Part shown: piece by piece, positions 4,869 to 45,932 of the stretch
How the letters are laid out: each line of letters begins with the position of its first letter
Position numbering within the stretch: position 1 is the stretch's first letter
Assembly (NCBI GenBank): GCA_000697665.1
Contig: KL197732.1
Coordinates: 246,316 to 310,315 of the forward strand
From: Jaapia argillacea MUCL 33604
Taxonomy: Eukaryota > Basidiomycota > Agaricomycetes > Jaapiales > Jaapiaceae
Reading direction: 5' to 3'
DNA length: 64,000 bases
Position numbers and translations under genes: made by a program
The notes under the pieces: generated by a model
Seen by the model: the letters and a program-made list of their open reading frames with translations, nothing else
What the model was told of the DNA's origin: nothing
Database searches by the model: none

Positions 4869-6105
4869 TCACCAATCCTCCCAACCAAATTTCAGCACAG
4901 CAGGATTCTCCTGGATGTTGTTCATATCATCCTTGGAGAACGCTATCGCAGGAAAAACGGAGATGTAATCCACGCATATTGGAGTAGTTGGAAATTTTAT
5001 TTCGCGGAGATATGGATTAGAGGAAAAGATCTCGCGAGCAACCTGTGTAGCCCCTCTAGACAGCACCGCCCACCAGAAAGAACTGATATCCCAGGAAGCC
5101 GGGCTGTATTCGAACGTATGCAGCTTCTTGAAAAGGGACAGCGAGCTGAGAAAACGTATGAAGGTTGCATCGACGGATTGGTTCTCTGCCTGATTGAATG
5201 AAGGCCTCGTTAAGGTTGACACTATCGGGAGGCTGAGAAGGACATACCAACTCGATACGCCCATCTAGGATGGAAAGCCGTCCAAGATGAGGTAATTTCT
5301 CTCCAATGAATCCCATCAGAGCAGGGCAGTCGACGTCTCCGTTGCAATTCTCTCGATCCAAGATCAGCGATACCAATGTCTCACCAAAGAGACTGAGGTT
5401 CGTCAGCATCGAAGTCCCAAATTCGATCTCTCCTTCAAAATAATGAAGAAAAAGTTCCCTCAAAGGCCGAGGTCCCTGGAAGGCAAATAAGATCTCCACG
5501 TCCGCTTCCATGCTTGTCAGGTTAGGCAGAAATGACTTCGGAAACCTGGTCTCGCCAGACATGAAGAAAGGACGGCGGTGTGTGAAGCGTTGGATCGTGG
5601 GCTGACGGTGTAAGAAGTCGATTACGTCCAGGATATTCAACGATATGTTGTGGAAGGTGTGAAGTCGGAACGAACAATCACGAAGAACCATCGCGTGACC
5701 CTCAGACCAGTGATCGCCGACCATGGTAGCTAAAGCGCGAAGGTTGTTAACTGCGGAGAGAATCTTTCGGCATGCGGTGAACATGAAAGCCTGGGATGTA
5801 GGTCGACCACGACCATCAACTGCCGGTGCAGCTTCGAACCAGAATGCGATGGTGAGTTCCTCGACGAATGTCCCTAGGATCCTATTCGTCTCCATTGTCC
5901 ATGCAAACGATATGACTTGTTCCTCGTCCAGCGTAAGATTTACGCGGTGGTAGAGTTTCGGGACGGCTTCTTGGTAGAAGGAACGGGAGGATAGGCAGAT
6001 TTGGCACAGGTCTTGGTTGTCGGATACGAAGGAGAAGATGTGGGAGTACAGTTCCAACGGCAACATCAGAAACGCATTGGGATGGGTTTGAGGCTGGAGT
6101 GCCAT
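4869..6105 (-). CDS. F-box protein, LELYSHIF family, subgroup B
   Basis: Two exons, 6105..5248 and 5189..4869, with a 58-nt phase-0 intron, give 392 residues. The F-box begins at residue 15 (LPLELYSHIFSFVSDNQDLC) and is followed by FYQEAVPKLYHRVNLT. The C-terminal exon has FEYSPASWD, SSFWW and a final LKFGWEDW. The ATG at 6105 is chosen because the F-box follows at once; the frame stays open upstream to 6228, so a longer N-terminus is possible. This member lies in inverted orientation to the F-box gene at 3.2 kb, suggesting movement within the family by inverted as well as direct duplication. Function beyond Skp1 binding is unknown. Confidence 0.78.
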
Positions 6106-8156: not shown

Positions 8157-10872
8157 TTACGAGAAAAGTCCTTTAAGCCTCCCCTTCACCTCCAAGCCCT
8201 CCAGCTCCACAGATCCCACTTTCTCTCCCTTCCGCCATTTCTCCACCAACTCTTTGGCTTCGACCGGTTTGATGTCCTTGTTCTTCGTTCCAACCGTGAT
8301 GTGTAACCTATCCCTCACCTCATGAGGTAGCTTCGAAATAAACTCTTGGGCTTCCTGACCCTTTGCATCCCCCTCAGAATCGACAGCCAAATCCTCGACC
8401 GTGACAGCCATAACACGATCGTTCCAGACGACGTGACCTAGCTTTGCTTTGAACAAGGGCCCGGTCGGAAGTTTGTGGATCCCCATACACCGCTCCCACA
8501 GATCCACCTCTTCTCGATGGTTGTTGAAGTGGGCGATCGTAACGTGGGGTCGTTTGGCCACCCGGTTCTCAGCCTTGATACCCTTGAAGAAGTCTTGACC
8601 CTCCTTCGGCACATTTGTCGGACCCATAGCCTTGGAGAGAACATCCTCCAAGTCCACTTCAGGAAGAAGCCCAAAGTATCGAGGAAGGGCCGCCTTCTCC
8701 GTCTGCTTCTCGTTCTTCTTCGTCTTGGGCTCGTATCCAGCAGCAGCATCCAGCGCCTCCTGGATCTTCTCTTCCGAGGGTCTCTCAACCCCAAGCACTT
8801 TCACACATACACCGATAACTCTCTTGAGTGCCTGCTCAAAGTTATCCTCGATGTTCATCTCTACAGAGACATCGACTTCGTCGTCGGAAAGTTCCTCCGC
8901 CTCGCTCAGGAACTTCCAGATGACTTCCTCGTGGGTTTTTGCAAGGGTATCAGCACGAAGGGTTTGGTGTTTGTCACCGCGTGCGAGGACGCGATCACCG
9001 CAAATACGATGTACCATCGCTGGTGGGATGTCGAACGTCCAGCTCAGGGCCAGGAGCCGAACAGGTGGGGAAATCTTTTCGATAGCGTCGCGGAGGGCTT
9101 GACGGTGAAGGCGTAGGTGATTGTTTCTTGTAGTGATTAGTCAGATGGATGGTATACCATAGGGAATCGAAACTCACTTGTCTGCGATTACAACGTCGTG
9201 ATTATCCAGTAGCTTGACGACATTTTTGACGAACGCGGGACCCGGTTTCTTGGCATGAACATCGTCGCTCTGAGTGTGACCGAACCCAAAGAGATGAACG
9301 AGGGCAACGGCAAGTGTTGTTTTACCTGAAGAAAACGATCAGAAATCGCGAGGAAAATGAGGCCAAGTGGAATTTAGATAACATACCGACACCTGGGACT
9401 GCAACGGGAACAATGATAGTCTTCCCAAACTGCTTCTCCCCATCAACTTGTACCGGATCGTTCAAATCCCCAGCAGCCTCAACCGCAGCCGATACCTCAA
9501 TGCCCTTCTTCGTCTTCATCCACTCCAAGAACCGCTCCCTGGTCGCGATGATCCCATGCCCGTTCGTATAGCCATCAAACTGTGCTCTATCCCTCTTGAT
9601 CTCCTCAACAACCCACTTGACATACAACTTCGTCTCCAGCCTCTTCATCCTATGCTTCGATAACTGGCCCACGCCCTTACCGCTTAACACCTGCTTGGTC
9701 AGTTCCCTCCAGTCGCGATACATCATGTAGGGTTCGTCGAATTTCACTTTGAAGAAGAACGAGGAACCGGGTTCATACGGTGAGGCAGAAACATTGTTAG
9801 TGTTGCCTTTGGTTGGAGGTTCGGTAACATGCGTGCGCACGACGAAACCTTCGATCGCTTCCCCACCCCAAGAACCAGTCTCTGCGACTTCTTCGGTGAA
9901 CTTTTTGACTTCGGGTATCGACTTGAGTTCGGTGGAGGGTGTCTCTATGAAACCCCATTCCCGGGCAAAGGCATTGACCTGGTCGGGAGGCATTGTACGG
10001 AAATGTTTGGAGCAGGCGTTGAGGCCGTGCAAATGGAGACCTGTTTTATCCGGCGGGTATGCGAGGACATGCTCTTCAAAGCCGTCATCGCAAAGCTGGC
10101 GGTCGTGAATAATGAGTGGTGGATTGAGGAAAAGTGGAGCGCAATGCTTACTTCGGCTATGGCTGTCCAGTTTTCCTCCCATAGGACACCTGCAAGGTCG
10201 GCTTCCGTCTTCCCCAACTTCTCGAATTGTTGCTGGAGCCACCATTCACCTCGCTGAGCGTGGCTCTGAGGCGAGTTACCGACTTGACCGAGTGAGTGCT
10301 TTGAGGTGATGACCAGCTTGGTCGAAGTTAGGGCAGCGATGAAGATGATGCACCCATTCGACTTCATTGTGAGGGTATACGGAGGGGCCGTGTGTGCTTC
10401 TAAAGATTCCCACTAGACATAATTTAGGTCAGGCGCGTAAGAAACAAGACTAGCATGACATCAAGGTCGGGTGACAATAGATTCAACACGATCTTTGGTT
10501 TGCCTCACTGCCCACGAACACAGACAACCAAGAAGACGGCAACAGTGAATGGCTTTGGGAATCTCGATCGAACTTTGGACTCACCGTGGTCCAAGGCACC
10601 TCCCCGATATTGAAGAACTTGTCATAGCCTCTCACCACAATACGATACTTCCCGTTCTCTAGCTCTCGAGTGAACAAGCCACGAGCGAGTGTGGGGAACG
10701 GTGATGGGATATCGTAGTATTTGAACTCGTTCATCTTCCAACTCCTAAGCGTGATCTCTGGATCAGCGGGAGCTGCATACTCGGAGGACTTGATCAATTT
10801 GGGAGCCTTGCTTGAGATCCGGTGAAGATCTGCAATGAGCTGCGAGTCCTCCTCTGAGAAATTGGGTGCCAT
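8157..10872 (-). CDS. TRL1: trifunctional fungal tRNA ligase (ligase, kinase, cyclic phosphodiesterase)
   Basis: Five exons, 10872..10585, 10412..10152, 10095..9387, 9325..9178 and 9126..8157, give 791 residues, the usual length. Trl1 seals tRNA halves after intron removal and joins the HAC1-type mRNA in the unfolded protein response. All three domains are visible. The N-terminal adenylyltransferase has the nucleotidyl lysine in KSNGCI (about K113). The middle polynucleotide kinase has the P-loop VAVPGVGKTT, split by an intron in its glycine codon (about 416-423). The C-terminal 2H phosphodiesterase has two H-x-T motifs, PHVTIAHF (about H663) and LHITVG (about H744). It is transcribed away from the HicA-like gene across a shared 488-bp gap. 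Confidence 0.93.
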
Positions 10873-34110: not shown

Positions 34111-36953
34111 TCAATTTCCACTGTGCCCAGTTTTACTCCAATACTTCTCGCCATAATCTAACAAAATCTCCTGCCCTCGAGAAATCCTTTTCGCTACCCT
34201 CGCTTTCAGATTCCGATGTAAGGATATAAGGAAGACTGTAACCTCACTTGCAAATATTCCGATGCGGTGCTCTCCATTCACATATAGAACTGCATCTCAA
34301 AATGAAAAATGGTAGATGAGAGTGGAAAGGGGAGACACACTTCTGGCTTCTGAACTAGCTCCTTTACCACTCTTATGATTGATGTATTGTGTGGTATTGC
34401 CTGTCCTGGCAGCATCAATGATAAATGCTTCATCCAGGTCAAAAAGATAGTTGAGACCGCGATGTTCTTGGAGTTCGCTGATATCGAAGGTTATGAAAGG
34501 AAGCAAGTCAAGACAGAAGATCAGAGGACAAACTTGACGTGGTCAGTATAGCCCTGCCAGAGCTTAAAGGATGAAGTTCAATCTCGGAGATAGTCGCTCA
34601 ATACTTCACGGTTACTCACAACATCGCCAACATACTCTGATATAAAAACCGCCAGTTAGCGAACATGGTGATGGCCAGACGGATAAGGAAATCACCGCCA
34701 ATAAAATCGCCATGATGTATCGTCTTGCATGCAAATAGTCCGAGGCCATACATCCCAGTCTTGACTTCGACATTCTTGTATAGCATCAACAGCAGGGAAC
34801 CGACAAGATTCAAGAGGGACTTACAGACATGAGACCTCGTTGAATATTCACATTTTTACACCGACCCTCCGGATCTTGTGTAGAAGGATTAGACACGAGG
34901 GTATATGAGATCATCAGCGTTGAAACAAACCTCTGGTCAACGAGTGTCCCAACCCAGAAGACATTAGGATGCGGGATACAGAGGCAGAAAGTAGGATATT
35001 ACCTAGCTCCACACGGAGAACAGACATCAGGATCACACTCTCTTCCAACCTTCCTACAACGACACTTGAGGAGCTCCGAACAATTACCTTTCTTGCATTT
35101 ACACCCCCTCCAACGACGTTGACCTGTATTGGCGGCAGTTCTCAATTCAAGGACTTGGTTGTTGGATTAAAAACCCACAATTTAGTCCACAACGACAATT
35201 CCGTTCGCAGTGAAGGTTGGCACCGAAACAACTACATATATCTGTGCCACATGGGCCTTCATGATCGCATGGGGGTTTACTAGCACACCAGACAAGATGA
35301 GTGGGGAGCAGAAAAAAGAGGGAGGAGGTGACTGACGGTGCGAACTTGTTCCAACTGTCAACGATATCATCAACTACAAGCACAATGAGACAAAGTTTTG
35401 CAAGTGCACTGAGGAAGAATGGACGCACCAAATTCCAGCTCCTCTTCTGGAAAAGCTTGTTGGTGCTCATTTTCCGGATCGACAATACTATCGTTGGTTA
35501 TAATCTCGCCTCGTTTAACAAAGACCTACGCATATCGCGTCGGGATGCACTTAGCAGCTCCATCGCCAAACGAGCATCCGAAAATTACCTCACGACAAGG
35601 CTTCTGGCACAACACGGCCAGATCACAAGAGATGAGGTCTGGTGTTACTTTCAACACCGATTGTAGATCGTCCATTTCCTCTTGGTCCCAGTAGAACATA
35701 TCCTAAGAACGAGATGCAAACTGAGGTCAATCGGGAGTGTTGGATCGAAAATGATAGGAAAGGGGAAATGATCTTACTTTGAATCTGTCGATATCCGTAA
35801 CCCGAAAGCAGCTGTCTCCGCATGGGTCCCCATCGCTTAGCCGCATCCGATCGTTGGAGAGAGCAGGTTTGATGGGACTGAGTGGGGTGTAGGGGAACGC
35901 TAAGATGAGGTCAACTATGTATGCGAGTGAGAGATTCCAAGGTTGAGCGTACTATGGGTCGGACAATATGGTTGTAAACAATTCAGACTTGGACAAAAGT
36001 GAACAAGCGATTTGTTAATGCGCCCTATGAGATCATCCTCCGAGGGACTAGCCCCGTGACCACTTAGAGGGTCTTGGAGGGAAGAGAGTGAGGAGCCCGG
36101 CCAATAAAGTGTGTCCCTTCGGGAAAACTCAGGTTGAGACACTTTGGAGAACGAACGAACGACGAGGGGATACTACCTTTGGGCAGTTTGCCACACTAGT
36201 CCCGAGTCCGCATCACTTCTAGTTGGTGTCAGAACATCCTGAGCATCGATTTCCTCGAAAGAGAGGGCATAAGCTTCCCCGAAATGGAGTCGACGAAGAG
36301 CCTCAATTTCGATTACTTCCACTGGTTTTTTGACAGATGAGAAAGAGGTATAACTGGGATTTCGGTGGGGACTTACGATCCGGATCGATCATGTCGTCTA
36401 TCCAATCCCACCGAGTGAATTGATCCTCGCGATTGGCATATCCGGCGTTGTCAAAGGTAGGATCATCAGCGAAAGGAAGGAAAGCGAGGTGTTTGGAGTC
36501 GTCGGGTTCGCCTTCCCGCCAATGGATATTTCGATTTGCGGGAGTACAAGCGTCGTATCGACGGTGTGAGGGGAAGGTTTTAACCTTGACACCTTGGGAG
36601 ACTATCTCAGAGCGAATTGGGGAACCGTTGTCCAAGTCAATGAATAGCAGGACGTCTTGATCTTCGGAGGCTTCAAGGTCCATCTCCTCAAAAAGTTGGT
36701 CAACTTCTTCCTCCTCCTCATCCTCCAGTTCACCGTAATCCTCTTCTTCAACATTCGAAGGCGCCTCTCGAACGAGCGATTCGATCAACTGCGCACACCC
36801 CTCCGGCTCCCAAGAATAAAACTCCTCCCATACCTCACGGTGAACCGCGATCACGAGGCTCTTGAGGTCGACTTCATCGTCCCTTCGACCTCGGGAAGGG
36901 TTATGTAGTCCATCGTAAGGTTCGGAACGGTCAACAAACGCGATATCATCCAT
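34111..36953 (-). CDS. E(z)/EZH2-like SET histone methyltransferase, copy 1 (diverged SET)
   Basis: Sixteen exons: 36953..36377, 36321..36177, 36116..35953, 35914..35778, 35702..35589, 35525..35429, 35373..35337, 35279..35179, 35123..35003, 34930..34825, 34774..34696, 34636..34620, 34553..34534, 34477..34341, 34295..34248 and 34202..34111, giving 663 residues in unbroken phase. An acidic N-terminus leads to FLPFADDPTFD; a SANT-like segment has YWDQEEMDDLQSVL and CDLAVLCQKPC. The cysteine-rich CXC domain (CDHEGPC, CERNCRC, RRWRGCKCKKGNC, ECDPDVC) precedes SET (GMYGLGLFA, NYLFDLDEAFI, VNGEHRIGIFA, LLDYG). E(z) proteins methylate histone H3 lysine 27 in PRC2. The usual R-F/Y-x-N-H-S reads QYINHK here, and the following P-N-C is missing. 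The 17- and 20-nt exons are the least certain part. Confidence 0.8.
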
Positions 36954-37212
36954 CGAGTCAAGAATAAAGGTTCCATTTTGAACTTTAGATCAAACGGTTT
37001 AGCGTACAACGATGCTTGCCACGATGAGTGAAAGAAGGATACCACCACCAACTACGGGACCGTCCATGGACTCTGTCGCGGACCATGGACCATGAGACTC
37101 CCGTCCAACTTAGGCATCTCCAGTCTGCCCGCTTGCTCATACCTCCACCTACATTATCCTCCAATTCTATCAGTCAATCCCTAGTTCTCCAGGCCCCGGA
37201 TATTCTGGAACG
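36954..37212. promoter_or_regulatory. divergent promoter region, EZH2-like copy 1 and ATG18
   Basis: Only 259 bp separate the two start codons, so core promoters must be back to back. No specific element is asserted. Confidence 0.4.
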
Positions 37213-38907
37213 ATGTTACCACAAGGGGAGCGTACAAACTCCAAGCTCTTATTCGCGAATTTCAACCAAGATTTCACGTAAGGCTCCACCGTCCTCACGC
37301 CTTGAATGAAATGGCTAATGGTTCCAGTGTGGTATAGATGTATATCGGTAGGGACGAAGAGAGGTTATAGTATCACTAATTGTGATCCATTTGGGAGAGT
37401 GTATACCATGAGTGAGTCTTTGATCTCGTTTGAAGGCGTGAGGGGGGTGGCTAATGGTTGGTAGATGATGGTGCAAGAGGAATCGTGGAGATGCTGTTTT
37501 GTACTTCGTTAATCGCGCTCGTGGGTGCTGCAGATCAACCTTCTTCTAGTCCTCGGAAGTTGCAGATTGTGAATACCAAAGTACGACCAGATCTTTTGTG
37601 CGTTTACTCTAGCCTGGTCGTTGCTGACTGCGGCTTTGAAGCGGCAATCCATGATCTGTGAACTCCTCTTCCCTTCATCCATCCTCGCAGTCAAGCTCAA
37701 CCGAAAAACCCTCGTCATCGTCCTCGAGTCTGAAATCTATATCTATGATATCTCCAACATGCGACTTTTACATGTCATCGAAACGACTCCAAATCCAGAA
37801 GGTTCGTACCTAGTTGACGCTACACTCTACGTGACCCTTGCCCACCATCCTCATCACGTCGCACAACAGCCATCTGTGCACTATCCCCATCGGCAGATAC
37901 TTCATTCCTAGCCTATCCCTCCCCAGTCCCCTCCCCAACCTCCCCACTCTCAAACCAAACAGCCTCCCTCCAACCAACCTCTTCCTCCTCAATCCAACAA
38001 TCAGGCGACGTCCTCCTCTTCAACACTCGTTCCCTAACAGTAGCAAACGTCATCCAAGCACACAAATCACCCATCTCCTTCCTCTCTATAAACTCCACCG
38101 GAACCTTATTAGCAACCGCTTCCGAAAAAGGCACAGTGATAAGAGTGTGGAGTATCCCCGGAGCAGAAAAGTTGTATCAGTTTAGGAGGGGGACGAGAGA
38201 GGCTAGGATTTATTCGATTAACTTTAATAGCGTGTCGAGTTTGTTGGCGGTTAGTTCTGCGCATGAGACGGTTCATATTTTCAAGTTGGGAGCGCAGAAG
38301 GGAGGGGGAGGGGGGAGTGGGAAGGGTCCGGTTAGTCCTTCTGGATCGGTGAATAGTGGGGATGGAGGACAGGTTATGGATGGTGGATATGAGGCGTATA
38401 TTGATGATAAGAAGAAGGGTGGGGTTTCGTGAGTTTTTCGTCTGCGTTGGTTATCTTCGTCGTCGTTGACGTGTTGGATAGATCGAGTTTGAGACGGAGA
38501 TCTATGCAGGTTACGAAAACGATCTCGTCTTCAATGGGCGGTTACCTCCCGAACACCTTGACAGAGATGTGGGAACCTTCAAGAGATTTCGCGTTTCTGC
38601 GATTACCGACTAGTGGCGCTCGGTGTATCGTAGCCCTGAGCGGGTGAGTAGCCATCACCATTCAAAGGCTTTGACAGTGAGCTTATGAGGGGCTGGGGTG
38701 TAGGACTATGCCACAGGTTATGGTTATTTCGTCTGAAGGATACTTTTACTCGTATAATATCGATTTGGAGAATGGGGGAGAGTGTTCGTTGCTGAAACAG
38801 TATAGGTTTGGACCTCTTCCTTCTCCCTCTCTCCATTGAAGACCCGTTCTCACTCAACTATGTCATACAGCTTGTTAGATTCAGGAGAGGAATCTTCAAA
38901 CGATTGA
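37213..38907 (+). CDS. ATG18: autophagy PROPPIN, Atg18-like WD40 protein
   Basis: Eight exons: 37213..37277, 37338..37411, 37465..37580, 37642..37801, 37870..38428, 38482..38643, 38704..38805 and 38871..38907, giving 424 residues. PROPPINs are seven-bladed propellers that bind PI3P and PI(3,5)P2 on autophagosomal and vacuolar membranes. Blade segments visible are [12 protein letters not shown] near the start, [39 protein letters not shown] and the lipid-binding FRRG in [10 protein letters not shown] (about residue 243), followed by the typical [16 protein letters not shown] glycine- and serine-rich loop with KKG repeats follows blade 6. A serine- and proline-rich insert also lies before [10 protein letters not shown]. 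Confidence 0.92.
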
Positions 38908-39394
38908 TCCCTCCCTCCCAGATTTTACCCCGACTGCATACGTAGTTCTCTTGGCGCATCTCATTGCCTCCTGTCTTGTCTTCGTATCTCTACTTCTGGA
39001 TATCGAGCACATGTACCTACCTACCCCATCAACGTTTAGCGAGAATGAAATGATGAACCGGTGCGCATGAAATTGAGTAAGTAAATGTTGGGGCCCGCGG
39101 GTGGATGGAGACCGGCTATACAGCATATGGGAACCGGAGTCGTCGGGAATTTCCCCACACGTCGTCCTGCCTCATGACATAGCTCAAACACCTGATTTGG
39201 GCGTCTCGGGTCTCCCCTCTCCTCTCCTTCTCTCCTCCTCCCTCCTCCCTCCAGCTCACTCTATTTCTGTTTATACCCCCTGTACCCGCCACGCAAACAA
39301 ACAAGGGTACTACAATCCCGCAGTCCTCTACATCTCACTCCGAAACCCAACAGCGCTGTCTACCTATCCTATCGTATCCCATCGTCAAAATCCA
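38908..39394. promoter_or_regulatory. intergenic, 487 bp, with a pyrimidine-rich tract
   Basis: A long C/T-rich run at about 39212..39256 lies 140-180 nt before the ATG at 39395, a common feature of fungal promoters. A GTG-started reading frame covers part of this stretch but no ATG does. Confidence 0.4.
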
Positions 39395-40864
39395 ATGGAC
39401 AGCTTTTCGTTATTGGATGGTATCCAAGCAGCCTTCTCATCCTGTCTTCCCTGCCTCCGTCCCCCCTCCCCTCCCTCTCCCTCTCCAACTTCAACCAACC
39501 GACGTCAAACCAATAACAATAGCAACACTGAGATAGAAGGTCATACAGACCTCGAACGTCTCCTCGCTTCTTCCGATACAGAAGTCGATTCTATCTCTTT
39601 ACATTCTAATTTCGGCGACCGTGATAGGAGGAAGGGGAGAACAGGGAGGAAGAAAGGGAGGGGGAAGGGGAAGGGTATGAAAGTGTTTGGGTGGGAGGTG
39701 TTTGGGAGGCAGGCTATTCGGTTACCTGATTCCGATTCTGAGGAGGAGGATGGGAGGGGTAAGAGGAAAACGAAGGGCAGGGGGTTGGGGCAGAGTGGGA
39801 GTGGGCCTATCACACCTTCTACTTCTACCACTCTGGATTCGGACGCTGCGCCTTTGGACCCCTCGACACTATCCGCTTCTGAGCTCAACGCCCTCTTCCT
39901 CTCCCACCGCGCCCAAGCTGAAGAGGAAGAAGCGAGGAGGAAGGAAGAGAAGGAAGAGAGGCGGAGGAGGAGGAGGGAGAGGAAGGAGATTAAGAAAATG
40001 GCTGTTGCGTTTGCGCTGGAACACGACGAAGGCGAATTTGAGGGGTTCCCTGGTTCTGGGTCTTTACACCACTCTTCTTCCTCTCATCCTGGGGGAACGA
40101 GTACGAATGGACGATCGCCGTTCAGCTCGGCGCAGAGTGGGACTGCGCGGTCTGATTCGAGAGATTCTGGGTCTTCGTTGGGTGGTCGGCCGGTCATAGT
40201 CGAATCGCAAGAGGACGTACAAGCCGATTTAGAATCTGAAGCTGCGGATTTAGGAGGGGGTGTTTATAGTAAGAGGAGGAGGGGTGGGACCGAAAGAGGA
40301 AGTGAAGGAGGATCGGATTCACGTTCTAGGACTTCAGCTTCATTCTCAAACCCAGATGCTTACGCCCCTCAATCTCAAACACTCCCTCCAAACACGCTCC
40401 CTCCCCCATACAAGAAAAAGAAGAAATCGTCGAGACATTCTACATCTTCGACTTCACAGTCGCTTTCGTTACCTTCGCCTGATCATTCTTCGTTTGGGGT
40501 TTCGAACCCTGGGGTTGTGGAGCCTTCTGGTCCTGGGTTGAGTCCAGGGTTTGGTTTACCGAGTACAGGTTTCGGCACGCCCGCTAGAGACTTTGGTACG
40601 CCCAGTACCGACTTTGGTTTACCGAGCACACGCTTTGGTACGCCCGGTACCGACTTTGGTTTACCGAGTACTGGCTTCGCTACTCCAAGTACCGACTTTG
40701 GGTTCCCCAGTCCTGGATTCACCACCCCGAGTCCAGGAGATGGATTGGGAGTGAACACGGGAGGGTTGGGTGTAGGAGGGGGATTCCCTAGTGCGGGGTT
40801 GAGTGGGATTAGGAGGAAGAATAGTGATAGAGGTGTTTTCCTTGCTAGGACTGGGGAGGATTGA
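39395..40864 (+). CDS. low-complexity 489-residue protein with C-terminal 7-residue repeats
   Basis: A single exon with the first in-frame ATG at 39395. Family not recognised. The N-terminus MDSFSLLDGIQAAFSSCLPCL carries a Cys-x-x-Cys pair that could be palmitoylated. Then come a Lys/Arg/Gly-rich basic segment (about residues 74-95), a charged helix rich in E, R and K (about 165-205, likely coiled coil), serine-rich linkers, a KKKKK stretch (about 345) and nine 7-residue repeats of the type (G/D)FG.PST (residues 385-447). The length of open frame argues it is a real gene; a membrane-anchored scaffold is only a guess. Confidence 0.7.
   Translation: MDSFSLLDGIQAAFSSCLPCLRPPSPPSPSPTSTNRRQTNNNSNTEIEGHTDLERLLASSDTEVDSISLHSNFGDRDRRKGRTGRKKGRGKGKGMKVFGWEVFGRQAIRLPDSDSEEEDGRGKRKTKGRGLGQSGSGPITPSTSTTLDSDAAPLDPSTLSASELNALFLSHRAQAEEEEARRKEEKEERRRRRRERKEIKKMAVAFALEHDEGEFEGFPGSGSLHHSSSSHPGGTSTNGRSPFSSAQSGTARSDSRDSGSSLGGRPVIVESQEDVQADLESEAADLGGGVYSKRRRGGTERGSEGGSDSRSRTSASFSNPDAYAPQSQTLPPNTLPPPYKKKKKSSRHSTSSTSQSLSLPSPDHSSFGVSNPGVVEPSGPGLSPGFGLPSTGFGTPARDFGTPSTDFGLPSTRFGTPGTDFGLPSTGFATPSTDFGFPSPGFTTPSPGDGLGVNTGGLGVGGGFPSAGLSGIRRKNSDRGVFLARTGED
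40547..40735 (+). repeat. nine tandem 21-nt coding repeats
   Basis: Consensus product GFG(L/T)PST, with D, R or G at position 1, F at position 2, P at position 5 and S or G at position 6. The units drift at the ends. They lie in frame at the C-terminus of the 489-residue protein. Confidence 0.85.
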
Positions 40865-41169
40865 TGGTGTTTGTAAGGGGTCGGGGGGTTGGAAGGAGGA
40901 TGGGTTGGTGGATGTCAATTATATGCGCACGTCTTTTCATAATCGTAGAAAGTGTTCACTTGGTTTGTTGTAGTGTTTCTGTTGGGGAAGGAATGTCTGT
41001 GTTGTTGGGCCACCGAATCGACATGCATAGTCGGCTGATCCAACTGGGTGAGGATTATTGACCCCCGATGGTCAAGACATAGTCGTACATATACACACAA
41101 CCGAAAGCTCTACATCTATCGTAGGGATTGAATGTCCTTTTCGTCCCAACAAGTTCAACGAGTTCAGGT
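40865..41169. other. intergenic, 305 bp, between convergent genes
   Basis: No coding signal recognised; presumed 3' UTRs of the repeat protein and NF-YB. Confidence 0.4.
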
Positions 41170-41837
41170 TCAGGCCCCATCAGCTTGCCCATCAGCATCC
41201 CCCGCCCTCGCCGAAGTCGACGAATTCTGGTGCTACACAACACGCCATGATCAGCCCCGCCCACGCAACACAAACTTATACGCAACGAACAACTCACCTG
41301 TCGTAACTTCGCCAAATGAATCTTGAGCGTCTGCGCATAATTCTCGAAACCAAGCGTAACCATAGCATACAGTATATCCTCCCCTCCTATCGTCTTGCGC
41401 TTCTCGAGTGCGCATTTTTCGGCGGCTTCGGAGGTGATGAAGGAGATGAATTCTGAGACGCATTCTTGGAGACATTCTTTTGCTTCTTTTGCGATTTTTG
41501 CTGTTGGGGGGACTGAGGATTTCATTATGCGGGCTACGTTTGCGATCTGGGGGGGTGGGTTAGCATCGTGGCCATCGTGCAACGGTCATGGAGTGAATAA
41601 GGCGGGGTACTAGGAAGGGGAGCACAAGGAGGGGAGGAGGATGGGCGGCATCGATCCGATTGGCCTTTGTTGGACAGCAAATGAGATGGAACGCACGGGA
41701 AGGTAACGATCCTGTTCCCGATATTCTCCAACTTCCTGCTCTGTGATTGGTGCTGGCGACGGAGGCTCGGGCACGCTTGCAGGTACTTCCCCTGTTCCGT
41801 CAACTTGAGGCGCTATCATAGGTCCAAAATCTGCCAT
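41170..41837 (-). CDS. HAP3: CCAAT-binding factor subunit NF-YB / Hap3
   Basis: Three exons, 41837..41697, 41546..41298 and 41232..41170, give 150 residues. The histone-fold core spans about residues 46-132: [52 protein letters not shown] and [16 protein letters not shown]. With NF-YC it forms an H2A/H2B-like dimer, and with NF-YA it binds CCAAT boxes in the nucleus. The first exon is a proline-rich tail; the last, 20 residues, is a short Ser/Ala/Gly/Asp tail. The intron between exons 1 and 2 is 150 nt, long for this window. Confidence 0.95.
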
Positions 41838-42290
41838 CGTGGTGAATGCGAGGTGTCGGATTGGGTGAGTGGGTGAACGTCGCCGTTGCGAGTGGGAGGC
41901 GCTTGTTGAGGATACGTTGTGCACCTCTGAGTATTCAGCGTTCCTGGATTCAGCTGGGCTGCTCTTTGATAATTCACTCCGAGTTACTGATTCTTGTCGC
42001 ACGGTCTCTACATTGTAATTGTTATGGAGGAACTAACGAACTACTCGAAATCTAAGTACTGCGCCGTTTTGTCTGGGGTTGTACCTATGCACTGGGTCGC
42101 CGATGATATCGCATAAATCGATAACTATACACACCGGTCTGACAACACCGATCCCCAACGTTAACGAATCCACTCGATAAACGCTCTACCCTCCAACCCT
42201 ACAAAAGCCAGCGATATCGAACTCACCACTCCCAAAGCACACACCACCACCAATCCCATCACCACCAATCCCATCACCCTCCTCACCACA
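41838..42290. promoter_or_regulatory. divergent promoter region, NF-YB and cupin gene
   Basis: 453 bp. A CCAAT pentamer on the minus strand (ATTGG at 41860..41864) lies 23 nt before the NF-YB ATG; it may be chance or 5' UTR. Near the cupin ATG, two copies of a 15-nt unit CACCACCAATCCCAT occur at about 42245..42276. Confidence 0.4.
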
Positions 42291-42947
42291 ATGTCAACCT
42301 CATCCAACGATCCAACCCCACCACCCCCGCCACCCCCCTACCTAATCTCCACATCCTCCCTCCTCACCACCACCACCACCACCTCCCCCTCCCTAACCCC
42401 CCGTGCCCACCGCTTCAACCCCTCCGCCCATCGCTCCCAATCCAACATCTCAGATTCCACCTCCCTAACCAAATCAATCGTCCACTTATGTCGGTTACCA
42501 CCCAACAGCGAGAGCACGGCGATGCATTGGCATACGTGTGATGATGAGTGGGTTTATGTCGTTGAAGCTGGGGAAGGGGCTAGGGTTGTTGTTGTTGAGC
42601 TTGATGAGGTGGCTCAGGTGGAAGAGGGGGAGGAGGGGGTGAAGGGCAAGGAGGCAAAGGGAGAGGCAAAGGGAGAGGGAGAGGGAGGGAAAGGAGAGAT
42701 CAAAACTAAAGAAATCCCGATTCACAAAGGCGACTTCCTAGGATTCCCAGCCGGAGCACGTATAGGCCGTCTCCTCAAATCAGGCCCAACCGAAGTAGTA
42801 TACTTGATGGGAGGTTCGAGAGAATCATTCGACGTTTGTCATTATCCTTTGTTGGGTAGGAGGTTGGTGATTGATAGGACTGCGGGTGGGAGTGGTTGGA
42901 AAGGTTGGTCGGTTTTGGATGGGGATGTCGTTGAGTGGAATAAGTAG
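42291..42947 (+). CDS. cupin-domain protein
   Basis: A single exon of 218 residues. After a Pro/Thr-rich N-terminus the cupin barrel begins at VHLCRLPPNS. Motif 1 appears as AMHWHTCDDEWVYVVEAGEG, with metal-ligand type His, His and Glu. An insert of about 40 residues rich in E, K and G (42610..42705) interrupts the barrel. Motif 2 is GDFLGFPAGARIGRLLKS, which lacks the usual metal-binding His. A tail with FDVCHYPLLGRRLVIDR follows, as seen in fungal and bacterial small cupins annotated as sugar-phosphate or dioxygenase-like. Activity cannot be assigned. Confidence 0.85.
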   Translation: MSTSSNDPTPPPPPPPYLISTSSLLTTTTTTSPSLTPRAHRFNPSAHRSQSNISDSTSLTKSIVHLCRLPPNSESTAMHWHTCDDEWVYVVEAGEGARVVVVELDEVAQVEEGEEGVKGKEAKGEAKGEGEGGKGEIKTKEIPIHKGDFLGFPAGARIGRLLKSGPTEVVYLMGGSRESFDVCHYPLLGRRLVIDRTAGGSGWKGWSVLDGDVVEWNK

Positions 42948-42999
42948 GTGGGTGAGGTGTATGTATGATGATGTGTTTAATGAATGTGTACAATATCCT

Positions 43000-43191
43000 C
43001 GAAATGATTTATCAAACCACCACCCCCTGATATCACCTATCAAAGAACTTTGGCCCATAATCCAAACTCAACTCAACTCCTTTAGCGATGTTCCTACCTA
43101 CCACCCCAAATCAGTCCCCATTCGTTGCGTTGTGAAAGGGAGAGGGAGAGGGAAGGAAAGCGAAAGGACTCACAAGCGTATATCCCGATCT
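43000..43191 (-). repeat. distal copy of a 192-bp tandem duplication of the EZH2-like copy 2 3' end
   Basis: Plus-strand 43000..43191 repeats 43192..43376. On the minus strand it has the end of the penultimate exon (RIGIYA region, donor GTGAGT at 43173), an intron, and a 65-nt terminal exon at 43097..43033 with acceptor and stop. Compared with the used terminal exon (43309..43245) there are five base changes, all at synonymous third positions. Intron and 3' UTR parts are more diverged. Confidence 0.85.
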
Positions 43192-43376
43192 CGAAATGAT
43201 TTATCAAATCACCACCCCTCAACCTCGTCCCACACCCCCTGACATCACCTATCAAAGAACTTCGGTCCATAATCCAAGCTCAACTCAACTCCCTTAGCAA
43301 TGTTCCTACCTACCCCAACCATCAGGAGGGTGAGGGAAAGGAAAGCGAAACCACCCACAAGCATATATCCCGATCC
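43192..43376 (-). repeat. proximal copy of the 192-bp tandem duplication
   Basis: This unit holds the terminal exon used in the gene model (43309..43245), the preceding 49-nt intron and the end of the penultimate exon (donor GTGGGT at 43358). Confidence 0.85.
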
Positions 43377-45932
43377 TTTGTTCTCCATTTACCAATTTCA
43401 CTGGGGGGTCGGTCAGTCCATAACGCGTGTGACAGCAAGGGGAAGGAAAGGAAGGAGAAAGAGCGAACGAAGGCAGAAGGAACGAAACGAAACGAACGAA
43501 AGAAGGAAAGAAAACCCACTCTGAGCCCTACAATTAGCCTTCTTCGAATGATTGATATACCTCATCTCATTCCCCGCCAACGAACTATCAACACTAACAC
43601 CTTCATTCAACCCAAACAAATACGTCCTTCCCCTATGTCTCGCCACATCACTAAAAAATACACACACCTTCTTCAGCTTCCTTCCTTTCACCAACGAAGA
43701 AGGGGGGAGGGGGGAGGGGGAAGGGGGAGAAAAGCTTACTCGCGAGAATCGACTGTAGGTTCGTATATCAGTTCACCTATATATTCTATCCCCTCGTTCG
43801 TCAGTTATGAAGGGAAGGAAGGAAGGAAGGGGGACAGAGGCGCAAGGGGGACAGAGGGGAACACACCAGAGATGTAATCCCCGATTTTGGCAGGTTCGTC
43901 TAGGAATAATCCCATACCATACCCCATCCCGCTCTTCTTCGCCAAAGTACGTTTTGAGAGACCGCGTTGGATATGGGCGTTTTGGCATGGGTGGGTTTGG
44001 TCTGTGGGGTGGGTGTTAGGGTTAGAGGGGAATGGGGAAGAGGAGGGGAGGGGGGCTTGCCTCTGTTGGTTTGGTTGTAGGGAAGGAGTTGGTTTGGTTG
44101 AAAGATGGAGGGAAAGGGGAGAGGCGGACCTTGCATTACAACTCAGACATATTTCCGGATCACATTCCCTCCCCGCCCTCCTACAAACACACGAATCGGA
44201 ACCACAAACCGCAGTTCTCCTCCCATTATGACAATCACATCCTTTCCATCTGTTCTTACCTACACAACCCCGTCAGTCGTCCTCGAAATAGAATATGGGA
44301 GAGAGAGGGAGAGACGGACAGGTGGTGGGACATTGACAATTCCTTTGACACCGGGTGTTGTTAAATGCACAATGACAATGTTCGAGTGAGTGACCTGTGG
44401 AGGTGAGGTAGAATTGGTCGCAGGGACCTGAATGTCTACAGGGTTCTTTCCTGTCCAACCGCAGTCAGCTCGAAATGAAATCGAGTTGGGTGGGGTCGAC
44501 AAATGGGTGGAATCGAGGGAGGGGTCGGGGGACGTACGGAGGAGGAGGCAATCGATTCCGATCAGGTTTTAACTCTTTCTTCGGGGGTGCGTTACTGAAA
44601 TATCTGGATGCCAAGTCTGTTTCGACTGGCCGTTCGATTTCTTGCATGATTCGTAGTTTTTCTGTTGATACCTGCATCACATTATATGGTAAGTAGGATG
44701 CGAGTGAGAGTGGGATTGGGGGCGGAGGTACCTGGTAACATGGTTTGAGACATAATATCGCTAGGTCGCAGGGAGGTACGTCCCCACATAGTTGGAGTAT
44801 CGTGCGCAGTTCGTTGGATTCTTCTGCCGTCCACGATTCCGCCTCGTTCTCTTTTTCGCGGAGAAGTTGGAAGCAGTGGGGACCACAAGGAGCCTTCTGT
44901 GTCGGTTCGTCGGCGTTATCGAATGGAGGTAGTTTTGGTGGGGGCATAGGGTTCATCTCGACTACCAACGTGTTCAAGAGAGGGGTTGGGAGGAGAGAGG
45001 GAGAAGGGGCCTACTATGGACGTAACAATATGGGTCGATACAGTTTAGGTTCGGACAGAAATTCCGGAGTGATTTCGTCACGCGGTCATACAAGTCCTCA
45101 GCTTTAGGAGGACCGAAAGCTGAAAGTGGTAAATTTGAATTGAGGGTGAGTTGAGGCCATGCGGGCCAGTCACTTTATCGAGTTGGGGTTAGTAGGGTGA
45201 GCTTAGTGATGGGTGGTGAGGGCTTACCGCAGTTTACTCATGTGGAGGAGTCCTGGGGAGTTGATAGTTGGGAAGAGGGAGATGGGGAGTGTACCTGTTG
45301 ATTCGATTTGTTCGAGGGAGAGGTTGTAAGTGGTGTGAAGGCGGTGGATTGTTTCCATTACGATGACTTGCACTTTACAACAAAACTAGAGTTACTACAG
45401 CGAAGGGAAGGGACAGTAGGGAGGGCGTACGATCAGGATCGGGTAAATCTTGCCACGAGAGGTATTTGTACGCAGTTTGGTGGTCGATGAAGTCGAAGGA
45501 TGGGTCGTCCGCAAAGGGAAGGAAAGGCATGTTGTCCGGGTCGTCGCCGACGTGGATATTGCGGGAGAGGGGAGCTGAACCTTCGTATGCGTCGTGGGAT
45601 TGGAATACAGGGAGTTCGATGGTATAGGTGGGGATGTGAGTGGTTATGGAGTCGGCTTCGGGGTAATCAATGAATTGGAGTGTCTCGGGGTGCGAGTCTA
45701 GAGACCATTCGGAGAAGGCGGAGAGTACTTCGTTGTCGAGATCGAGGGGTGGAGGGGTCGTGGTACCCTCTGTGTGCTTCGCGGGGTTGCGAAGTAGGGA
45801 GTTGATCGCGGTTCGCGAGGCTGGTTGCTCCCATGCATAAAATTCCTCCCAAACTTGTCGGAGAACGGCTTGAATCAGTTCTGAACATTCATTTGTACCA
45901 TATTTTCTGTCCAGTCTTGATGAACCTTCCAT
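43245..45932 (-). CDS. E(z)/EZH2-like SET histone methyltransferase, copy 2
   Basis: Thirteen exons: 45932..45431, 45372..45295, 45252..45228, 45172..45015, 44961..44732, 44671..44538, 44450..44320, 44259..44130, 44060..43867, 43785..43740, 43650..43520, 43400..43359 and 43309..43245, giving 621 residues in consistent phase. The N-terminus has VWEEFYAWEQ and FLPFADDPSFD; the SANT-like segment SWTAEESNELRTILQL and CDLAILCLKPC; the CXC domain CRHSGPC, CHCAFNNTRCQRNC, KNRWKGCDC and ECDPEIC; SET has GYGMGLFLDEP, EYIGELIY, TYLFGLNEG, MRYINHSKKANC, VNGEQRIGIYA and LSLDYG. It is the probable H3K27 methyltransferase of PRC2. Upstream in-frame ATGs reach 46037. The introns near the 3' end carry GGAA-rich microsatellites. 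Confidence 0.87.
43401..43519. repeat. purine-rich GGAA/CGAA microsatellite within an intron
   Basis: The plus strand shows runs of GGAAGGAAAG and GAACGAAACG at about 43438..43512, inside the intron between the last SET exons of EZH2-like copy 2. A second GGAA run lies at about 43809..43830 in another intron of the same gene. Confidence 0.7.

Follow-up and report, generated by a model that had tools for sequence, protein, structure and literature searches.

A linked pair of diverged E(z)/KMT6-type methyltransferase genes in Jaapia argillacea, one with a non-GT donor at an intron within its SET region

The fungal KMT6 chain 5bjs_B, which we take to be the Chaetomium thermophilum EZH2 chain, shares its CXC-SET architecture and CXC cysteines with the two Jaapia argillacea genes described here, A and B. 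It is about 38% identical to A and to B in CXC-SET, and like B it carries the SET Asn-His pair without the NHSxxxNC form. In mammals, EZH1 and EZH2 are described in the accessible text of one source as alternative PRC2 subunits (PMC7846606). That system likewise has two E(z) paralogs per genome, whereas A and B are 39% identical, lie 6 kb apart and are known here from sequence alone. For fungi, the accessible text of a review gives single KMT6 and EED homologues in all species examined (PMC7348808), and that of a survey covering 229 species of fungi records the gain of an extra E(z) copy in Agaricomycetes, together with a duplication in Armillaria gallica (PMC9692433). Another study, as far as its accessible text goes, assigns basidiomycetes and Euglena to E(z) clade I and ascomycetes, Cryptococcus, ciliates and C. 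elegans to clade II; apart from 19 stramenopiles, each species is confined to a single one of its five clades, and the separation between clades I and II is less clear (PMC9018016). In that text, clades I and II have CXC and SET only, as do A and B by domain scan.

The Agaricomycetes and Armillaria gallica copies resemble the present case in being an additional E(z), a comparison made by description only, with orthology and linkage not stated in the accessible text of the survey (PMC9692433). The A/B pair probably falls within what that text describes. On the same text, an extra E(z) in Agaricomycetes is already published, and A and B add another case of a type already described.

Both genes were found in the window, the whole stretch of 64,000 nucleotides analysed (C24:246316-310315), which belongs to an assembly of 43.7 Mb and 95 contigs. 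We drew up the exon models manually from open frames and then checked them by script. Gene A (43245-45932, minus strand) encodes an E(z)/KMT6-type methyltransferase of 633 amino acids in 12 exons (45932-45431, 45366-45228, 45172-45015, 44961-44732, 44671-44538, 44450-44320, 44259-44130, 44060-43867, 43785-43740, 43650-43520, 43400-43359 and 43309-43245); its frame is open throughout, its 11 introns are all GT-AG and it ends at a normal stop. Gene B (34111-36953, minus strand) encodes a second methyltransferase of this type in 15 exons (36953-36377, 36321-36177, 36116-35953, 35914-35778, 35702-35589, 35525-35429, 35373-35337, 35279-35179, 35123-35003, 34930-34825, 34774-34696, 34636-34582, 34477-34341, 34289-34248 and 34193-34111), giving 664 amino acids if all 14 introns are removed. 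Thirteen of these introns are GT-AG, and intron 12 (34478-34581, minus strand) has TT, not GT, at its 5' end. The preliminary description had placed both genes on the minus strand about 6.3 kb apart; the strand and the outer ends (34111 and 45932) agreed exactly, and the coding-region gap (36954-43244) measures 6291 bases. It had also called both genes intact, which held for A, as this gene reads through, but had to be qualified for B, in which SET is truncated if intron 12 is not spliced from its TT donor.

The last exon of gene A is repeated 212 bases downstream on the minus strand (43033-43097; first copy 43245-43309). The two copies encode the same 21 residues, and 5/5 differences between them are synonymous third-position transitions; the chance that five changes would all be silent under random transitions is ~0.007. 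Possibly both copies are kept, perhaps as alternative last exons, or the assembly has joined two alleles.

The space between A and B holds a histone-fold protein (CBF/NF-Y match of 83.1 bits in a Pfam scan), a long low-complexity open frame and two further open frames, so that A and B are not directly adjacent. One intergenic frame is, we assume, an Atg18-type WD40 look-alike, and a further one is presumably cupin-like, judging by appearance. Elsewhere in the window, LxxELYxHIF or a closely related motif occurs in eight open frames on both strands (at 6063, 14631, 16163, 17819, 19511, 24749, 26485 and 30461). An F-box-like match (PF12937) was obtained in 2/2 of these frames that were scanned, at 29.4 bits (cut-off 24.3) and, below the cut-off, at 19.3 bits; the eight frames probably reflect an expansion of an F-box-like family in this region. 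Additionally, a T4-type RNA ligase domain (PF09511, 124.9 bits) lies at 9328-10245 on the minus strand.

A Pfam scan revealed a complete SET domain in gene A (PF00856, 69 bits, profile positions 1-105 of 105) and a CXC domain in each gene (PF18264, cut-off 23.3 bits), at 25.5 bits in A and 26.7 bits in B. In a CXC profile search of the assembly, the matches lay at 44132-44242 in A (C24:290447-290557) and at 35005-35106 in B (C24:281320-281421), both on the minus strand, as is the FLPFADDP motif at 45501-45524 in A and 36459-36482 in B. When all introns were removed from the CXC-SET part of B, it scored 65.7 bits for SET and 28.3 bits for CXC. This SET score, which covers profile positions 1-105, is conditional on the removal of intron 12 via the TT donor, and it becomes 15.4 bits (cut-off 22.4) if the frame ends at residue 578. 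N-terminal to CXC, where EZH2 has a Cys-rich segment and a SANT-type region, A aligns with EZH2 from residue 258 and B with chain 5bjs_B from residue 325; a Pfam search for SANT at E up to 1 gave a match neither in A nor in B up to residue 578. FLPFADDP, CXC and SET follow one another in the same order in both genes, as first proposed, but the SANT-like region included in that proposal is indicated solely by the EZH2 alignment.

Intron 12 of B has the same position and phase as intron 9 of A, where the donor is GTAAGC. Using a donor score derived from the 24 GT introns that A and B have in total, we obtained -3.53 for the TT donor, compared with -0.67 for the lowest GT donor. The donor is weak at the next four positions as well, and its +5 position is off-consensus (G in 19/24 GT donors). 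If the intron is retained, B stops after residue 578, inside SET and ahead of most of that domain. We searched for splicing alternatives with the start of exon 12 and the downstream frame held fixed, allowing single introns of at least 30 nt and double introns of at least 35 nt each. Single-intron joins that kept the frame open numbered 43 (donors GT, GC, AT, GA or TT), five of them being GT-AG. The whole homologous segment was preserved by 0/5 single-intron and 0/29 two-intron frame-open GT-AG joins. The join from a GTATGT donor (score 2.42) loses the EYVG segment; those from GTAACC (-0.52) or GTGAAG (-5.85) to TCCAAG drop part of SET, and those from the same two donors to GTCAAG swap part of SET for intron-derived residues. 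The join from the GTAACC donor at 34615 to TCCAAG stays in frame with a net loss of 15 residues, and SET still scores 56.8 bits. As assembled here, the last part of B would be joinable only via a non-GT donor, or via a GT donor at the cost of part of SET.

We compared the two genes by codon position. Over 604 codons, positions 1, 2 and 3 are alike in A and B at 54%, 60% and 33%, and beyond intron 12 of B the corresponding values are 62%, 60% and 42% (79 codons). The agreement beyond intron 12 indicates that the last part of B has also been long constrained, and by this measure the coding sequence of B, before as well as after intron 12, has been under long purifying selection. Otherwise the junctions and reading frame of B are unbroken throughout its 664 codons in 15 exons. 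Its third-position GC falls from 47% before intron 12 to 37% after it, and its SET segment is 35.7% identical to the animal EZH2 chain, compared with 42.5% for A.

Taken as a reading of these sequences, to which we assign a probability of roughly 0.8, A would be the most likely working H3K27 methyltransferase and B a functional second E(z), now or until very recently. In A, SET, aided by the CXC zinc cluster, would transfer methyl groups from SAM to H3K27, the substrate and the complex being those expected for the family. B would have served as a second E(z), with purifying selection acting on it, and likewise on the part that follows intron 12, through most of its past.

It is possible, though on balance improbable, that B was recently inactivated, so that it yields a SET-truncated protein and leaves A as effectively the sole working E(z). 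The TT donor with its stop after residue 578 when unspliced, the loss of some of the SET segment in every GT-AG join tried and the fall in third-position GC beyond intron 12 all point in this direction, against which the remainder of the gene is unbroken and the codons past intron 12 look as constrained as the others. Because the rest of B is unbroken and constrained, such an inactivation, if real, would be recent. We consider it rather unlikely that B is an ordinary intact gene in which the TT arose through faulty assembly or sequencing. Such an error would explain the sole anomaly in an otherwise well-formed gene, but with +5 off-consensus too, a wrong first letter alone would be insufficient; an indel error might account for it. 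Far more speculatively, intron 12 might act as a switch, its retention giving a 578-residue E(z) and its removal a second catalytic subunit, which would make B a dosage- or stage-controlled PRC2 subunit. It is just as doubtful that the 578-residue form, with its N-terminal region, CXC and an incomplete SET, could compete with A for partners.

Returning to a functional second E(z) as the preferred reading of B, we assessed family membership by PDB sequence searches, in which the best 60 of 105 matches were listed for each gene. The first 19 listed were E(z) chains for A and for B (1e-33 to 5.6e-29). The best match of A was EZH2 (1e-33), and among the matches listed the next family was ASH1L (4.3e-20); the best match of B was 5bjs_B (3.9e-33), and the best non-E(z) chain among those listed, labelled H3K36-specific methyltransferase, reached 4.2e-15. 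Together with the CXC and SET domains of each gene, this ranking bore out the initial description of both as EZH2-like. Moreover, 16 cysteines between the start of CXC and the C.N..QRG block are invariant in A, B, 5bjs_B and the animal chain 4w2r_A, and the SET Asn-His pair and the C-terminal Tyr are the same in 4/4 of these aligned sequences. SET domains are common to several families, yet the E(z)-type CXC in both genes and the position of E(z) chains far ahead of every other SET family listed make it highly implausible that A or B belongs to one of those, such as ASH1, SET2 or SUV39, and this assignment was rejected on the PDB ranking. By these characters, A and B are both of the E(z)/KMT6 type.

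At the NHSxxxNC position, gene A has NHSKKANC and gene B has NHKSGKGASS instead. We did not accept that B is catalytically dead for want of this motif, as the fungal EZH2 chain 5bjs_B departs from it there too.

We then considered the age of the pair. The full-length amino acid identity of 39% rises to 43.6% in CXC-SET, compared with 44.2% between 5bjs_B and 4w2r_A over the same segment, and fourfold degenerate sites are alike at 19/90, about chance level, and so are saturated. Ten of the 11 introns of A have a counterpart in B in the identical alignment column and phase, and the remaining one is displaced by two columns; with a tolerance of 6 columns, 11/11 match. Random intron placement under that tolerance (at most 6 columns, same phase) gave a mean of 0.92 matches and a maximum of 6 in 20,000 trials. 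B has three introns without a counterpart in A. Four shared introns had been named as examples beforehand, after PDPD (phase 1), after PYC..[VT]H (phase 1), in the CXC cysteine (phase 1) and before C.N..IQRG (phase 2), and each was recovered; the statement that the duplication is not recent was likewise upheld by the low identity and the fourfold sites. Location on the same contig with about 6 kb between would suit a duplication artefact of the assembly or a pair of alleles at a single locus, but the 39% identity, the saturated fourfold sites, the three B-specific introns and the other open frames in between represent too great a divergence, and we rejected this as practically excluded. Low identity and saturation instead indicate an old paralog pair.

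A likelihood quartet on CXC-SET, comprising four sequences (A, B and the two reference chains, with no other basidiomycete E(z)), grouped A with B (AU 0.982; alternatives ~0.018 each). With two reference sequences only, the quartet says little on the timing of the duplication. Branch lengths were ~1.72 substitutions per site between A and B and ~1.85 between 5bjs_B and the animal chain, and the closeness of these distances leaves the age of the duplication unfixed.

Next, we analyzed the number of E(z) copies in the assembly. The CXC profile search of the 43.7 Mb found two places only, genes A and B, and the prokaryote controls were silent. When the first 578 residues of B were used as the query, there were 15 matches in the genome, of which B accounted for 11 and A for 4, with none elsewhere. 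A genome SET scan listed 16 places, none of them within A or B; that it overlooked both genes indicates that intron-split domains can escape exon-by-exon searches. A third, intron-split E(z) copy in the assembly is unlikely. No fungal E(z) relatives were found in the genome_contigs or viral_contigs collections; the single genome_contigs match covered 27 residues in a Nitrospirae MAG. Among other searches of the genome, the only 18S rRNA match found, obtained with a 100-base query (C94:16500-17126), ends at the contig edge, and neither a 5.8S search, with 39 of 1321 candidates scored, nor one for an 18S-ITS junction pattern yielded anything. PF17667, which we take to be a fungal kinase family expanded in Agaricomycetes, had 66 matches in the genome, with 4/14 prokaryote controls also positive; this hints at membership of that class without establishing it.

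Partners of PRC2 were sought in the same genome. A profile search for the SUZ12-type VEFS-box gave 0 matches, a weak negative as the controls were silent as well. No EED was identifiable with the human query, whose 101 matches (E up to 10) fell mostly over one repeat region; four regions were inspected, and this negative is also weak. The four regions (L027-L030) presumably encode Utp13, coatomer alpha and Tup1-like proteins, judging by their looks. One of them (L029, C9:720500-726500) contains a pair of WD40 Tup1-like open frames that closely resemble each other, differ in their low-complexity stretches and are separated by ~3.1 kb. According to the accessible text of two sources, fungi may lack SUZ12 or have a strongly diverged form of it (PMC8788455, PMC10638273), so that these partner-search negatives carry little weight.

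The meaning of the pair depends on gene B. A division of labour between nuclei, life stages or loci, suggested by the preliminary description, is so far a hypothesis. If B is dead or dying, the locus would be a case of ordinary paralog loss. If both genes work, this linked pair, diverged about as far as fungal and animal EZH2 chains, would offer a system for the division of PRC2 tasks between paralogs outside animals and plants.
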